This document shows, piece by piece, positions 35,858 to 43,393 of a stretch of 64,000 nt of DNA. Numbering within the stretch: the stretch's first letter is position 1; the number at the start of each line of letters is the position of its first letter. The DNA lies in contig NZ_CP091092.1 in assembly GCF_029633915.1 (NCBI RefSeq), positions 868,001 through 932,000 on the forward strand, given 5' to 3'. The notes under the pieces were generated by a model that did not search any database, was not told where the DNA came from, and saw only the letters and a program-made list of their open reading frames with translations. A program made the position numbers and the translations under genes. This DNA comes from Methanomicrobium antiquum (GTDB taxonomy: Archaea; Halobacteriota; Methanomicrobia; Methanomicrobiales; Methanomicrobiaceae).

Positions 35858-36277
35858 ATGAGTGAACACAAATTATCTGCAGATTCAGATGCCTCTGATT
35901 TTTTGCCGGTTGCAATGGCAATACACCGCATAATAAGGCTTCCTGTCACTGCCCGTTCCAAAAACTGTAGGGGAGTGCAGATTGAAAACGGACATGTCGT
36001 AAATGATGATTATTCAGGGCCTGTATTAGAAGAAGTTATAAAGCTAAACAGCCTTTTAAAGACCAGTCCTCCGGATGGCCCATACAAAGGGGTTCCTGTA
36101 ATTGTAGCCCCTATCAGAGATCAAAACGGAGAAGCAACAGGGGCAATCGGAGTTGTTGATTTCGCAGGAGTATTTGATCTTGCAACATTAATGGAACACC
36201 AGTCTGCAATATTAAAGCAGGTATGCGGTAAAGATCCGTGTCCTCTGCCTTCTGAATTATCAGCTTCAAAAAAGTAA
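35858..36277 (+). CDS. DUF2111 family protein
   Basis: A 139-residue protein of DUF2111, known from methanogens. Conserved segments include ARSKNCRGVQIENGHV, PPDGPYKGVPVIVAPIRDQNGEATGAIGVVDFAGVFDLATLMEHQ. The fold resembles a GAF/PAS-like ligand-binding domain. The role is unknown. It lies 44 bp after the GATase-like gene and 15 bp before birA, probably one operon from archease to birA. Confidence 0.85.
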   Translation: MSEHKLSADSDASDFLPVAMAIHRIIRLPVTARSKNCRGVQIENGHVVNDDYSGPVLEEVIKLNSLLKTSPPDGPYKGVPVIVAPIRDQNGEATGAIGVVDFAGVFDLATLMEHQSAILKQVCGKDPCPLPSELSASKK

Positions 36278-36292
36278 TAGAAGGTAATTATA

Positions 36293-37273
36293 ATGAATAA
36301 AACTGCTGAAAAAATTCTTGCTATACTTGAAAAAAGGAAAGGTCCGGTGTCTGGTGAAGAAATAAGCAGAGATCTTGATATTACCAGATCTGCTGTATGG
36401 AAACAGATTAATGAGCTTAAAAATAAAGGTTATCAGATAAATTCATCAAAAACAGAGGGTTATGAATTGATTGCTCCATCTGATCTTTTGCTTCCATATG
36501 AGATAAAAAAATACTTAAAAACCAATTTTATTGGTCAGGATATTTTCCATTTTCAGACAACTCCTTCAACAACATGGATTGCAAAAGATTTGTGCCGAAA
36601 AGAAGAACCTGACTCATTAAACGGTACAATTATTATAGCCGAAGAACAGACCGGAGGTGTTGGCCGTCTTGGAAGAGCATGGTTTTCACCAAAGGGAGGA
36701 ATATGGGCTACAATAATTCTAAAGCCAAAAGTTCCGATTGAAAGGCTGTTTTTTGTGACAATGGCAGGATCAATTGCTGTTGCAAGAGCTATAAGGCAGA
36801 TGTACAATATTGGTGCTCTTATAAAGTGGCCAAATGACATATACATTGGCGATAAAAAAATATCCGGTATTCTTCTGGAATTATCAGCAGAGGCAGACCA
36901 GATTCACTATTGCCTTCTTGGAATGGGAATTGATGCAAATATAAGCCCTGATGATCTTCAGGATGGGATGAAAACTCCGGTAACCTCACTTAATGTCGAA
37001 ACAGGAGAAGATATAAATCGTGCCAAATTCCTTGCGAATGTTTTACTTGAATTTGAAAGGAGATTAAATCTTATTGAAGAAGGTGAATATGAGTCTCTTG
37101 TAAGGGAATGGAAGAGTCTTTCACTGACGCTTGAAAAAAGAGTAAGAATTACAACACCCAGAAAGACAATTGAGGGTGAGGCAATGGATATAGACGACCA
37201 TGGCGCTTTGATAATCAAAAAAGACAATGGTATGGTTGAAAAAGTCCTTTCCGGAGATTGTACCCCAATCTGA
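36293..37273 (+). CDS. birA: Biotin protein ligase/repressor BirA
   Basis: A 326-residue bifunctional BirA. Residues 1-62 are a winged helix (LEKRKGPVSGEEISRDLDITRSAVWKQINELKNKG), the DNA-binding part found only in regulatory BirA. The catalytic domain has EEQTGGVGRLGRAWFSPKGG (GRGRxG-like loop) and IKWPNDIYIGDKKISGILLE, and a small C-terminal SH3-like domain follows. It biotinylates the carrier Lys of PycB. A BirA-box-like inverted repeat lies before bioY, so it probably also represses biotin uptake. Confidence 0.95.
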   Translation: MNKTAEKILAILEKRKGPVSGEEISRDLDITRSAVWKQINELKNKGYQINSSKTEGYELIAPSDLLLPYEIKKYLKTNFIGQDIFHFQTTPSTTWIAKDLCRKEEPDSLNGTIIIAEEQTGGVGRLGRAWFSPKGGIWATIILKPKVPIERLFFVTMAGSIAVARAIRQMYNIGALIKWPNDIYIGDKKISGILLELSAEADQIHYCLLGMGIDANISPDDLQDGMKTPVTSLNVETGEDINRAKFLANVLLEFERRLNLIEEGEYESLVREWKSLSLTLEKRVRITTPRKTIEGEAMDIDDHGALIIKKDNGMVEKVLSGDCTPI

Positions 37274-37431: not shown

Positions 37432-37545
37432 TAAATTAATTTTTTATCGGGTTTTAAATATCAGATTTTGGTATTCTGAAAATATTTATATGCATTTTTT
37501 CTTCTTATCACGTGCATTATCCGCCAGATTTTAGAAATCTATATC

Positions 37546-37577
37546 TTGTCAACCACAAAATAAAATGAGGTTGACAT
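37546..37577 (+). promoter_or_regulatory. BirA operator (biotin repressor box) before bioY
   Basis: TTGTCAACC (37546-37554), 14-base spacer, GGTTGACAT (37569-37577): an inverted repeat with one end mismatch, matching the bacterial BirA box pattern TTGTxAACC-N14-16-GGTTxACAA. A TATA-like aatctatat lies directly upstream (about 37536-37544), and bioY starts at 37580. Binding would cover the transcription and translation start. Confidence 0.8.
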
Positions 37578-37579
37578 AG

Positions 37580-38101
37580 ATGTACGGTGATGAAAAAAGA
37601 ACACAGATTATTTCCCAGACCGGGCTTTTTATTGCATTAACTGCTATTGGAAGTTATATTACAATACCTATGATACCTGTTCCTTTTACTCTGCAGACCC
37701 TTTTTGTTCTTCTTTGTGGATGTATTATGAAAAGGTATGCAGTAGTTGCCATATCACTGTATTTAATAATTGGTCTTATTGGTCTTCCTGTTTTTCACCA
37801 GTTAACATCAGGGCCGGGAATTCTTTTGGGCCCTACCGGCGGTTATCTTATAGGGTTTGTCGCGGCATCGTTTATTGTAGGTATTTTTTATGAGAAAAAA
37901 AGCAGAATTCTAAGAATATCCGGACTTTTTTTTGGAACCGCAGCAATATTGGTATTTGGAGTGTTATGGATAGCAGTCTCAAGTGGAATTTCCATATGGT
38001 CGGCATTTTTAATCGGCGCTGTTCCTTTCGTTGTTGGAGATTTAATAAAATTCATTCTTGCTTTTCTCATATCTGAAAGAGTTGAAGGTATTGATGATTG
38101 A
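37580..38101 (+). CDS. bioY: Biotin transporter substrate-binding protein BioY
   Basis: A 173-residue S component with six membrane helices. MIPVPFTLQTLFVLLCG and LLGPTGGYLIGFVAASF are BioY signatures. It binds biotin and docks with the ECF module encoded next (two ATPases and a T component), in the order bioY-ecfA-ecfA-ecfT. The stop overlaps the start of the first ATPase by 8 bp. It is preceded by the BirA-type operator. Confidence 0.95.
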   Translation: MYGDEKRTQIISQTGLFIALTAIGSYITIPMIPVPFTLQTLFVLLCGCIMKRYAVVAISLYLIIGLIGLPVFHQLTSGPGILLGPTGGYLIGFVAASFIVGIFYEKKSRILRISGLFFGTAAILVFGVLWIAVSSGISIWSAFLIGAVPFVVGDLIKFILAFLISERVEGIDD

Positions 38102-38774
38102 TTTACAAAATATTAAACACAAAATACTTGATATAGACAATTTCCAGATACCAAAAGGTTATACATGCATAATAGGAGAGAATGGGAGCGGAAAAAGTAC
38201 GCTTTTAAATTTACTCTCCGGAATGGATCTGTCAGAAAAAGGCAGTGTTTATGTAAACAGAAGACGAATCCGGGATATAAACGTAGGATATGTTCCTGAA
38301 TGTCCTGAAAGGCAGATTATTTTTGAGTTGGTTTTTGATGAGATAATCTCTCCGCTTCGTTTTTCCTTTGTAATATCTGATGAGGCATCAGAAAAAACAA
38401 TGGCGATTTCAAAACTGCTTGGCATCACTCATCTTTTAGATAAAAAAACATTTGCACTTTCAGGTGGCGAGAAAGCATTTGTCTCACTGGCAGTGGCAAT
38501 TGTGTCATCACCTGAGCTTTTGATTCTTGATGAACCGGATTCTCATCTTGATTTTGACACAGCGGGAAAATTAATGTCTGTTTTGAAAAAATCAGGCACT
38601 GATTATGTTATTCACTGTACACAAAATATGGAGATTGCCAAAACGGCTGATTTTCTGATATATATGGAAAAAGGCAGAATAAAATTCAGCGGTCATCCGG
38701 AAACTGTTTTTAAAAATTTAAAAAACACAAATTTTTTTCCGGTTATGTGGAGGCTTGAAGAAATTGTCGGATAA
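38094..38774 (+). CDS. ECF transporter ATPase 1 (biotin module)
   Basis: The frame is open from 38058, but ATG 38094, overlapping the bioY stop, starts directly at the first strand (MIDLQNIKHKIL). The 226-residue ATPase has Walker A GENGSGKST, signature LSGGEKAF, Walker B LLILDEPDSH and a following switch His (VIHCTQ). It pairs with the next ATPase and the T component to drive biotin import. Confidence 0.92.
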   Translation: MIDLQNIKHKILDIDNFQIPKGYTCIIGENGSGKSTLLNLLSGMDLSEKGSVYVNRRRIRDINVGYVPECPERQIIFELVFDEIISPLRFSFVISDEASEKTMAISKLLGITHLLDKKTFALSGGEKAFVSLAVAIVSSPELLILDEPDSHLDFDTAGKLMSVLKKSGTDYVIHCTQNMEIAKTADFLIYMEKGRIKFSGHPETVFKNLKNTNFFPVMWRLEEIVG

Positions 38775-39480
38775 TTTATCTGAGCCTCAGATAATTTTAA
38801 AAGATTTAATTTTAAAAAGAGACGGATTTACTCTTTTAGCTAATGGCGTCTTTGAAAAAGGCGTACATCTTATCACCGGAAAAATAGGGTGTGGCAAAAC
38901 AACTCTTTCAATGGCTCTTGCCGGCTATCTAAGACAAGAGTCCGGTCTGATAGAATGCAAAAATATTGAAAAAACGCTCCTTTCTATGCAGTTTCCCGAG
39001 TACCATCTGACCGGACTGACACTCGAAGATGAAATTAAATCCTGGGGACTGTCCTCTGATGAAATATTAGATAAATCAGAACTATGTGGATATGGAAAAA
39101 CCGACCCTATGAAAATGTCAAGAGGGGAATTAAAAAGACTTCATCTGGTATGTATTTTATCTAAAAGAAAAGATCTGTTAATTCTTGATGAACCGTTCAG
39201 CACTCTGAGTCCAATGTGGAAAGAACGTTTCTGCAATAATCTGGCGATTCAGGAAGGCATCACTATTATTTTCACGCATGAACAGACTTATTTTCCAAAA
39301 ACAGATTATATCTGGGATATCGATTCAGGAGAGCTGAATTATATAGGTCATGTTCCTGAGTGCCTGGATTCCTGGAAAAGTGCTCCTGAATATATCAAAA
39401 CAGCACTTAAAAAAGGTGTTTTGCCAAAAAATATCAGGTTTGAAGATACTCTGGAGGCAATATGCAGGATGCAAGATTAA
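38764..39480 (+). CDS. ECF transporter ATPase 2 (biotin module)
   Basis: The frame opens at TTG 38755, but GGAGG at 38749-38753 better serves TTG 38764 (10-base spacing), giving 238 residues. Walker A is GKIGCGKTT, Walker B LLILDEPFS, switch His in IIFTHEQ. The signature is degenerate, MSRGELKRL instead of LSGGQ, so this subunit may be the less active half of a heterodimer. Overlaps: 11 bp with the first ATPase, 19 bp with the T component. Confidence 0.9.
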   Translation: MSDNLSEPQIILKDLILKRDGFTLLANGVFEKGVHLITGKIGCGKTTLSMALAGYLRQESGLIECKNIEKTLLSMQFPEYHLTGLTLEDEIKSWGLSSDEILDKSELCGYGKTDPMKMSRGELKRLHLVCILSKRKDLLILDEPFSTLSPMWKERFCNNLAIQEGITIIFTHEQTYFPKTDYIWDIDSGELNYIGHVPECLDSWKSAPEYIKTALKKGVLPKNIRFEDTLEAICRMQD

Positions 39481-40103
39481 GAATATTTTCAATATTTTTG
39501 CTATCATTTTCGGCATTTACCAGTATTACAGGTGCAGGACTTGTTTTCATATGGTGGCTTTTTTTTTCAGAAAGGGAAAAATCAATTCCGTCAGTCAGAA
39601 TATTTCTGGGATTTTTTTTCTTAACATCAGCAGTTGCTTTTTTTATGGAGATTAGAGGTTTTAACGGACTTTTTTACTTCTGCAAAATGATTGTTATTCT
39701 GCTTGTTGCCTGCTGGGCATTTAGTCATATTACATCTAAGGATTTACTAAATTTCATGACCTGGATGTTTGGCCAGAAATATGGTTTTGAACTGGGGCTG
39801 ATATCAGCAATAGCGCTTAATAAAATAAAATTAACATCAGAAGATTACAGTCGGGCAAAGATTGCATACAGCATTAAAAAAACAAAAATAAGATGGTATG
39901 ACTACATATCCGTTTTGGGAAATATTTTCATATGGTCGCTTAGGGACGCATCACAGCAGGGAAAAATTCTGGCACTTCGCGGATACACATTTGGCGGAAG
40001 TATGCAGCCTTCATTTGAGAAGTCGAAAAATGACATAATACCTGCCTTTCTGGCAATAACGATTTTTTTATTCTCTTTTTCCACCTTAGTGACATATTTA
40101 TAG
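39462..40103 (+). CDS. ECF transporter transmembrane (T) component, BioN-like
   Basis: A 213-residue membrane protein with four to five helices. The coupling segment ALRGYTFGGSMQPSFEKSK contains the Ala-Arg-Gly-type motif that touches the ATPases in EcfT proteins. Position after the two ATPases of the bioY operon makes it the T component for biotin uptake. It ends 75 bp before pycB. Confidence 0.9.
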   Translation: MQDARLRIFSIFLLSFSAFTSITGAGLVFIWWLFFSEREKSIPSVRIFLGFFFLTSAVAFFMEIRGFNGLFYFCKMIVILLVACWAFSHITSKDLLNFMTWMFGQKYGFELGLISAIALNKIKLTSEDYSRAKIAYSIKKTKIRWYDYISVLGNIFIWSLRDASQQGKILALRGYTFGGSMQPSFEKSKNDIIPAFLAITIFLFSFSTLVTYL

Positions 40104-40113
40104 TTCGGATGAG

Positions 40114-40139
40114 AAAGTTATTAGAGACCTGATAACTTT
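40114..40139 (+). promoter_or_regulatory. Inverted repeat in the pycB promoter
   Basis: Perfect 8-bp inverted repeat AAAGTTAT-N10-ATAACTTT, about 20 nt downstream of a TATA-like catatttatag (40092-40102), and 40 nt before the pycB ATG. The strong ribosome binding site TTGGAGG follows. The half-sites differ from the BirA box, so another regulator is likely. Confidence 0.45.
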
Positions 40140-40178: not shown

Positions 40179-41915
40179 ATGAGTGTGACAAATCCTGTAA
40201 AGATAACAGATACTACCCTTAGGGATGCACATCAGTCCTTGATCGCAACGCGTTTAAGGACTGAGGATATGATCCCTGTTGCCCGTGAGATAGATAAAGC
40301 TGGCTTTTTTTCAGTTGAAGCATGGGGCGGTGCAACTTTTGACAGCTGTATAAGATATCTAAATGATGATCCCTGGCAAAGGCTCTCTGATTTAAATTCT
40401 GTTTTGAAAAACACTCCTATACAGATGTTGTTACGTGGACAAAATCTTGTAGGCTACAAGCATTATCCTGATGATGTTGTTGAAAAATTCATTGAGGCCG
40501 CAGGCAGAAACGGTGTTGATATCTTCCGTATATTTGATGCCTTAAATGACATTCGGAACATGGAAAAATCAATGGAAACTGTAAAGGACATTGGTGCGCA
40601 TCTTCAGGGAACAATAAGTTATACAACAAGTCCTGTCCACTCAACAGAAAAATTTATTGGATTTGCCGAGGCTCTTTACTCAAAAGGCTGTGACTCAATA
40701 TGCATAAAAGATATGGCCGGCCTGATTATGCCAAAAGCGGCAAAAGAGTTGATCACAGGAATAAAAGATAAAGTAGACATTCCGGTAAACCTGCATTCTC
40801 ATTCAACAAGCGGAATATCTCCTATGAGCTATCAGGCGGCGATAGAAGCAGGTGTTGATATACTTGATACGGCTATGTCTCCGTTTGCCATGGGAACATC
40901 ACAACCTCCGACAGAAAGCGTTGTTGCAAGCTTGAAAGACACAGATCGTGATACAGGTATCGATCTGATGAAGCTTAAGGATATCAAGAATCAGTGTATG
41001 CTGATGAGAGAAAAATACGCAGGACTGATTGATCCAATTTCTGAGAGAATCGACAGTGACGTACTTATCTATCAGCTTCCAGGCGGAATGATCTCAAACC
41101 TTGTTTCACAGCTAAAAGAGCAAAATGCCCTTGATAAAATTGATCTTGTCCATAATGAAATTCCTCATGTAAGGAAGGATTTGGGCTATCCGCCTCTTGT
41201 TACACCGACAAGTCAGATTGTTGGAACACAGGCAGTTCTAAATGTACTGATGGGCGGGGAGAGATACTCAAACGTCACACAGGAAGTAAAAGACTATGTA
41301 AGAGGTCTTTATGGAAAACCGCCCGGAAAAATATCAGATGAGATAATCAAAAAGATAATAGGAGACCAGAATCCTTTTTCCGGAAGACCGGGCGATCTTT
41401 TAGAACCTTTATATTCCAAGATGGCAAAAGAAGCCGCTGAGAAAGGTCTTGTCAAAAAGGATGAGGATATTCTTACATACATTTTATATCCTGCAATCGC
41501 ACCCTCCTTTTTGAAGGGAGAGAGAAATGCAGAGGCAATACCAAAGTTATCTGCCAAATATGCATCCCGTTCTTCTGAGATTCCAAGCTGTATGGAGGTT
41601 GAAGTTGACGGAGAAATATTTTCGGTAAGAATTCTCTCAGTAGAAGGCAGTGCAGTTGAATCCGCAGATTCTGTGGGTGCAAAGAAGATTCCGCGTGACA
41701 TTAAAGGCGGAATTATGAGCAATATGCAGGGAATGGTTTTGAAGGTTGAGACTAACATCGGCGCACAGGTAAAACCCGGAGACACTCTTGTTGTCCTTGA
41801 GGCAATGAAGATGGAAAACCCGATAAAATCCACAAAGGAAGGAAAAGTAACACAGATTTTTGTGGATGAAGGTGATACTGTGCAAAACGGTGACGTTTTG
41901 CTGGTGATTGAATGA
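40179..41915 (+). CDS. pycB: Pyruvate carboxylase subunit B (carboxyltransferase + biotin carrier)
   Basis: A 578-residue PycB. The carboxyltransferase TIM barrel starts [17 protein letters not shown], with catalytic and metal residues in IKDMAGLI and [10 protein letters not shown]. The C-terminal ~70 residues are the biotinyl domain with the biotinylated Lys in [10 protein letters not shown] and the usual GDTLVVLE. With PycA it makes oxaloacetate from pyruvate, the anaplerotic step of autotrophic methanogens. The stop overlaps pycA (ATGA). Biotin uptake and ligase genes lie just upstream. Confidence 0.96.
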
Positions 41916-43393
41916 AGTATTTTGAAAAAGTACTGATTGCAAACCGCGGTGAGATTGCAATAAGGATAATGCGTGCCTGCAGAGAACTTGGAATAGAGAC
42001 GGTTGCAATTTATTCGGAGCCTGATAAAAATTCCCTGCATGTAAAGTATGCAGATGAGGCATTTCCTGTTGGCGAGGCTCATCCCTCTAAGAGTTATTTA
42101 AATAAGGATAAGATAATAAAAACCGCCCGTCAGGCAGGAGCAGATGCTATTCATCCGGGATATGGTTTTCTTGCGGAAAATTCCGGATTTGCAAAACTCT
42201 GTGAAGAAGAAAATATAAATTTTATCGGTCCTTCATGGAAGTCAATTGAAGCTATGGGCTCAAAACTCGGCTCCAAACATATGATGGAAAAGGCAGGTGT
42301 GCCTGTTCTGCCATATACTCCTGAGGGTGTGAAGTCCATTGACGAGGCAAAAAAAATTGCTGGAAAAATTGGCTATCCTGTTATCGTCAAAGCCAGTGCA
42401 GGTGGTGGCGGAATTGGAATGCAGATTGTTGAATCTGAAGATGGGTTAGAAGAAGCAATTGAAAAGGGAATGAGGATTGCACAATCTGCTTTTGGCGACC
42501 CAACTGTTTTTATTGAGAAATATCTTGTAAAGCCCAGGCATATTGAATTTCAGATTCTTTGCGACAAACAGGGAAACGGTGTCCATTTATTTGACAGGGA
42601 ATGCTCCATACAAAGAAGACATCAAAAGCTTGTCGAAGAAGCACCCTGTCCTATAATGACTGATGAATTAAGGGAGAAAATGTCACATTCTGCTCTTAAG
42701 GTAGCTGAGGTTTCTGGATATTATAATGCCGGAACAGTTGAATTCCTCTATTCCGAGGGTAATTACTACTTTATGGAGATGAATACACGTCTTCAGGTGG
42801 AGCATACTGTAACTGAGATGATAACTGGAGTTGACCTTGTCAGACAGCAGTTAAAGATTGCGGCAGGAGAGGATCTTTCACTGTCACAGGATGACATAAC
42901 AATTCGTGGACATGCGATTGAATGCAGGATAAATGCCGAAGATCCATTAAATAACTTTACAGCAGACCCTGGCAAAATCGTAAGATACAGATCCCCTGGG
43001 GGTCCCGGAATCAGGGTTGATTCGGGAATCCATATGGGATACTCTATTCCACCAATGTATGATTCAATGATATCCAAACTTTGTTCATGGGGTATGAACA
43101 GGCAGGAGTGTATTGAAAGAATGCGTCGTGCAATCTATGAATATGTTATAATCGGTGTTCATACAACGCTTCCGATGCATCATGCTATTATGTGCGACAG
43201 GGACTTTATAACCGGAAATACACATACGCATTTCTTAACTGACGAACACATAAAAAAGAATCTTGCAAGATTCCTTCGTGACGATGAGGCTAGGATGCAG
43301 ACTCTGGCGGCATCTCTGAGGCATGGAAAACAGTCTGCGGCAATAACTGCCGCTGTTAATGTATATATTCGTTCACAAAACCCTGAATCATAA
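41912..43393 (+). CDS. pycA: Pyruvate carboxylase subunit A (biotin carboxylase)
   Basis: A 493-residue biotin carboxylase. Features: [23 protein letters not shown], the glycine-rich ATP loop [15 protein letters not shown] near residues 160-175, the HIEFQILCD strand, the [22 protein letters not shown] catalytic segment and a conserved C-terminal lid. It carboxylates the biotin of PycB with ATP and bicarbonate. The start overlaps pycB by 4 bp. The last ~40 residues form a short Ala-rich tail. Confidence 0.97.

Follow-up and report, generated by a model that had tools for sequence, protein, structure and literature searches.

Sequence comparison across the Methanomicrobiales indicates that biotin-loaded BirA very probably represses two genes of Methanomicrobium antiquum through identical operators: bioY, whose box lies next to birA and whose product belongs to a biotin importer, and ppcA, which encodes an archaeal-type phosphoenolpyruvate (PEP) carboxylase. 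We also consider it likely that BirA acts in this order as a cofactor-sparing switch, governing both biotin import and a swap from pyruvate carboxylase to archaeal-type PEP carboxylase; on that reading, biotin-auxotrophic methanogens could keep making oxaloacetate without the vitamin. The window, that is, the whole stretch of 64,000 nucleotides analyzed here, holds the first box, and the second lies outside it. The features that bear on the argument are as follows.

36293..37273, + strand: birA, a biotin protein ligase with an N-terminal winged helix and the predicted repressor (Pfam HTH_11, BPL_LplA_LipB, BPL_C)
37535..37545, + strand: TATA-like element AAATCTATATC, abutting the box on its 5' side (predicted from sequence; AT-rich in relatives)
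37546..37577, + strand: predicted BirA-type operator TTGTCAACC-N14-GGTTGACAT before bioY (pattern search; published consensus)
37580..38101, + strand: bioY, the biotin-specific S component of an ECF importer (Pfam BioY, E 2e-39)
38097..38774, + strand: first ECF-type ABC ATPase (protein family match)
38755..39480, + strand: second ABC ATPase of the bioY operon (protein family match)
39462..40103, + strand: probable transmembrane T component, the third ECF component, assigned by position only (a Pfam search of this protein gave no match)
40179..41915, + strand: pycB, the biotin-carrying subunit of pyruvate carboxylase (protein family match)
41912..43393, + strand: PycA, pyruvate carboxylase (protein family match)
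G000:C1:1532716-1532747 (L005:4717-4748), outside the window: second BirA-type box, upstream of ppcA, a perfect copy of the dyad
L005:4771-6249: ppcA, archaeal-type PEP carboxylase (full-length PF14010 match, E 4e-191; TIGR02751 above its cut-off)

A preliminary description of this DNA had claimed a dyad at 37546-37577 that fits the bacterial BirA operator, directly follows a TATA-like element and ends two bases before the bioY ATG. The dyad is present exactly as described, and the coordinates agree, with the ATG at 37580. The likeness to bacterial sites also holds: the published BirA consensus is TTGTAAACC-[N14/15]-GGTTTACAA (PMC545781), and the box at bioY consists of TTGTAAACC-like inverted half-sites with the N14/15 spacing of an operator. 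At position 5 it has C in place of A, a variant shared with delta-proteobacterial BirA sites of the form TTGTcAACC...GGTTgACAA (PMC545781).

Window shuffles, genome counts and family-wide counts with a reversed control rule out the box at bioY as a chance match. No match to the dyad occurred in 100 dinucleotide shuffles of the 64-kb window. In the whole genome, which was searched as one contig of 2,438,126 bases (2.44 Mb, 99.7% complete), the 16-base dyad TGTCAACC-N14-GGTTGACA has exactly two perfect copies, at bioY and at ppcA (the latter at G000:C1:1532717-1532746), and no site with one or two mismatches; with three mismatches allowed, 10 sites were found versus 8 for the reversed-pattern control. 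Across the 28 genomes of the family, every site with at most one mismatch lies upstream of one of these two genes; the one exception, a third site in G001, falls within an ORF and was taken as chance. The reversed pattern gave no site at this threshold in the same 28 genomes. The second site, at ppcA, was not expected beforehand and could not be seen from the window alone.

The surroundings of the box look like those of a promoter. It stands in the putative promoter of a biotin gene both here, between the TATA-like element and the ATG, and in 63 relatives. In the relatives, where the preliminary description had suggested looking for it, the same box sits between an AT-rich element, whose AT content is highest at -10 to -1 relative to the box, and a bioY start shortly after. 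Because the AT-rich element and the bioY start flank the box so closely, BirA bound there would cover the start region. The best reading of the box at 37546-37577, which we hold with high confidence, is that of a predicted BirA operator through which bioY would be repressed in response to biotin. Repression had been put forward from the window, and the consensus, the alignment of BirA with its bacterial counterpart and the tracking of the box with the BirA helix (below) all support it. Archaeal BirA signals are already known in kind, and the box before bioY is of that kind. According to its title, the study by Rodionov, Mironov and Gelfand (2002, Genome Res 12:1507) reports a BirA signal common to Eubacteria and Archaea; going by that title, the bioY box resembles the archaeal signals described there.

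The putative regulator has the structure that such a role would call for. As stated in the preliminary description, BirA carries a winged helix: the window protein has the Pfam HTH_11 domain and aligns end to end, HTH included, with Staphylococcus aureus BirA (3rir, E 6e-38). It has the layout of Group II (bifunctional) BirA, with an N-terminal winged HTH followed by the BPL catalytic and C-terminal domains, and the recognition helix residues SGE...TRSAVWK are conserved. When an intact helix was defined by G at the SGE turn and by R/Q, A/T and W at the helix, intact helix and bioY box were both present in 71 of 98 genomes of the order, both missing in 24 and discordant in 3 (G077 and G191 have an intact-looking helix without a bioY box, and G082 is the reverse). 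All 72 box-containing genomes keep the G of the SGE turn, W and K, and the motif is lost in most genomes that have no box. In genus g11, TRSAVWK is replaced by IPRSTVSHH, IPISSVTRQ or IPGSSVARH; SGE is lost in g35, and the helix is also changed in g23 and G135.

An HTH-type BirA in a genome with no box at bioY had been named in advance as evidence against repression. Such genomes do occur, in g11, g35 and others, but they fit the proposal, because bioY there usually follows birA after 1–10 nt and lacks a separate promoter, and conserved residues of the HTH are usually lost. This close spacing, which is general in g11 and g35, indicates that the separate bioY promoter region has been lost in these two genera.

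The box at ppcA follows the same pattern. ppcA scores above the cut-off in 52 of the 199 genomes of the order, and 51 of its upstream regions could be assessed: 31 have the box and 20 do not. In the 50 genomes with both regions readable, boxes occur at both bioY and ppcA in 30, at neither in 20 and at one only in none. All assessed f1 and g18 genomes keep the ppcA box, and the box-less ppcA genomes are all assessed members of g11 and g35 together with G047 (g23) and G135, the last of which has only a 14/18 box remnant far upstream in its bioY region. Some of the genomes compared are incomplete MAGs. On a quick tree of the BirA ligase domain, from which the HTH columns had been removed, 8 changes are counted for the bioY box and 3 for the ppcA box, every ppcA change coinciding with a bioY change; a sign test on these three independent co-changes is weak (p 0.25), the events being too few for significance, although all 50 genomes are concordant. 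ppcA thus behaves as a member of the regulon, with a conserved site where BirA is of the box type and no site where the BirA HTH and the bioY box have been lost. We also considered whether the box-less ppcA genomes simply have no pyruvate carboxylase, which is ruled out by the presence of PycB in nearly all genomes of the order.

In detail, the two sets of sites look alike. Half-site positions 3, 4, 6, 7 and 8 (G, T, A, A and C) are near-invariant at both bioY and ppcA, so that the two sets have the invariant bases G-T-x-A-A-C in common, with spacers of 14 or 15, and g18 genomes carry the variant TCGTC...GACGA at both of these unlinked sites. Several ppcA upstream regions have T-rich, promoter-like sequence directly before the box, and in two ppcA copies the box is unusually far upstream, 194 and 315 nt from the STQHP codon. 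None of 1,600 draws of shuffled upstream sequence reached a 15/18 match, and beyond the Methanomicrobiales the PEP carboxylase loci of other archaea and of bacterial MAGs do not exceed this background. Contigs with bacterial labels, among them Chloroflexi, Dehalococcoidia and Omnitrophota (loci L149, L153, L160-L162, L167, L168 and others), also encode close relatives of the archaeal-type enzyme, again with no box.

These observations bear on whether one protein reads both boxes, as BirA probably does. BirA might instead repress bioY alone, the ppcA box being bound by another regulator or being a remnant; the tie between BirA and ppcA is one of sequence, which leaves some room for this account, but we regard it as very unlikely. 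Both loci have the same invariant bases and 14/15 spacing, the g18 variant is common to both, the ppcA box is kept in 31 of 51 assessable genomes, including all of those assessed in f1 and g18, and the two boxes were lost together in three lineages along with changes in the BirA helix. Those helix changes likewise make it very unlikely that the inverted repeat is no DNA operator but an RNA hairpin (an attenuator or a mask over the start codon), even though its 9-bp arms, separated by a 14-nt loop and close to a start codon, could pair in RNA. A hairpin would need pairing only, whereas the same letters recur at positions 3, 4, 6, 7 and 8, and pairing of the outermost bases is frequently interrupted. 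Moreover, with the TATA-like element abutting the bioY box and the ATG just after it, little of the box would be transcribed, and at ppcA the box stands at differing distances from the start.

The direction of control at ppcA is read from box position only, and BirA could in principle occupy both boxes yet activate ppcA, raising PEP carboxylase when biotin is present. We judge this very unlikely, since BirA is a repressor in the systems described (PMC6391492, PMC545781), since binding directly after the T-rich promoter-like sequence seen in several ppcA regions should occlude it, and since a biotin-induced PEP carboxylase makes little metabolic sense. Repression of both genes by BirA is the reading that we carry forward.

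What this repression might achieve is suggested by the enzymes concerned. Pyruvate carboxylase is biotin-dependent and carries biotin covalently, and PEP carboxylase is not described as biotin-dependent (PMC8100219); the latter converts PEP and bicarbonate to oxaloacetate, the same product as that of pyruvate carboxylase. The pyruvate carboxylase genes had been placed just downstream of the importer operon, and the PycB and PycA family calls stand. PycB is the only protein with a Pfam Biotin_lipoyl domain found in this genome, and a single match of this kind is present in 26 of the 28 family genomes, making PycB the only evident substrate for the predicted BirA ligase here. No bioB was found above the cut-off in this genome, so biotin probably has to be imported.

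From the sites, which have no further copy in the genome and occur together across the order, and from the helix changes that match them, we infer binding, repression and a response to biotin of the following form. With plentiful biotin, dimers of biotinyl-AMP-loaded BirA would occupy both boxes and block preinitiation at the bioY operon and at ppcA, and oxaloacetate would come from biotinylated pyruvate carboxylase. When biotin is scarce, or when apo-PycB consumes biotinyl-AMP, BirA would leave the boxes; the importer would then be made and uptake would rise, and the biotin-free PEP carboxylase would take over oxaloacetate synthesis. The predicted rise of PEP carboxylase as biotin falls draws on the position of the box and on the action of BirA as a repressor elsewhere (PMC6391492). 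A sparing switch best explains the arrangement because it combines a sensor of biotinyl-AMP, PycB as the only evident substrate of that sensor, and boxes at both the importer and a biotin-free substitute.

The system resembles bacterial Group II BirA regulons in its operator half-sites, N14/15 spacing and wHTH-BPL protein (PMC545781), and bioY is a target of S. aureus BirA as well (PMC6391492). Unlike in the bacterial regulon, the predicted promoter here is archaeal, no biotin biosynthesis target is present, and the second target is a PEP carboxylase. S. aureus BirA likewise controls an operon beyond biotin synthesis and transport, yhfS-yhfT, but this encodes other enzymes and provides no biotin-free substitute for a biotin enzyme, as ppcA would here (PMC6391492). 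By contrast, BirA of Corynebacterium glutamicum is a monofunctional ligase and no regulator (PMC3398298). In the open-licence literature, judged by title and abstract, no link between BirA and PEP carboxylase was found. B12 riboswitches control B12-independent methionine synthase, such that shortage of the vitamin turns on an isofunctional, vitamin-free enzyme. The sparing logic is the same as that proposed here, where the switch would be protein-mediated and would act on biotin, at the oxaloacetate node, in archaea.

If the proposal is correct, it gives a transcriptional reason for the two oxaloacetate-forming enzymes in many of these methanogens and brings central carbon metabolism into the archaeal BirA regulon. 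Methanomicrobiales with ppcA would then be predicted to survive biotin starvation better than relatives that have no ppcA. The loss of helix, bioY box and ppcA box in the same lineages also offers a natural test of regulator-site co-evolution.

Several further observations concern the regulator and its sites. In G119 (L254), of the Methanogenium-type genus g5, the bioY box is lost and the BirA helix is scrambled (VPEAEIKDS), and its congeners keep both. In genomes of family f6, genus g21 (L263, L265-L267, L285-L288), there are two BPL genes, of which some at least include an HTH; the box there is of the variant TTGTTAACC...GGTTAACAA and the SGE turn is altered (AGN/TGT), possibly a matched change of protein and site. 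A tandem pair of BirA-like boxes seems to be present in several bioY promoters of the Methanoculleus-type genus g12 (L120, L121, L124, L126, L130).

We also examined the genes near the two boxes. The genome-wide pattern search found no BirA-type box at the pyruvate carboxylase genes of this genome, which rules out a direct box at pycB, and autoregulation of birA was set aside because no comparable box lies upstream of birA in box-containing genomes. A large CetZ/tubulin-like protein with a long, acidic, repetitive tail is encoded divergently from ppcA (L005:1525-4284, - strand). Upstream of pycB, the inverted repeat AAAGTTAT-N10-ATAACTTT (40114-40139) lies just before or over a TATA-like stretch and, to judge from its sequence, could be the operator of another pyruvate carboxylase regulator. 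Directly upstream of birA, 35858-36277 encodes a DUF2111 protein (PF09884, E 1e-32); this conserved coding stretch seems to precede birA in several relatives too, and its product is possibly an unrecognized partner.
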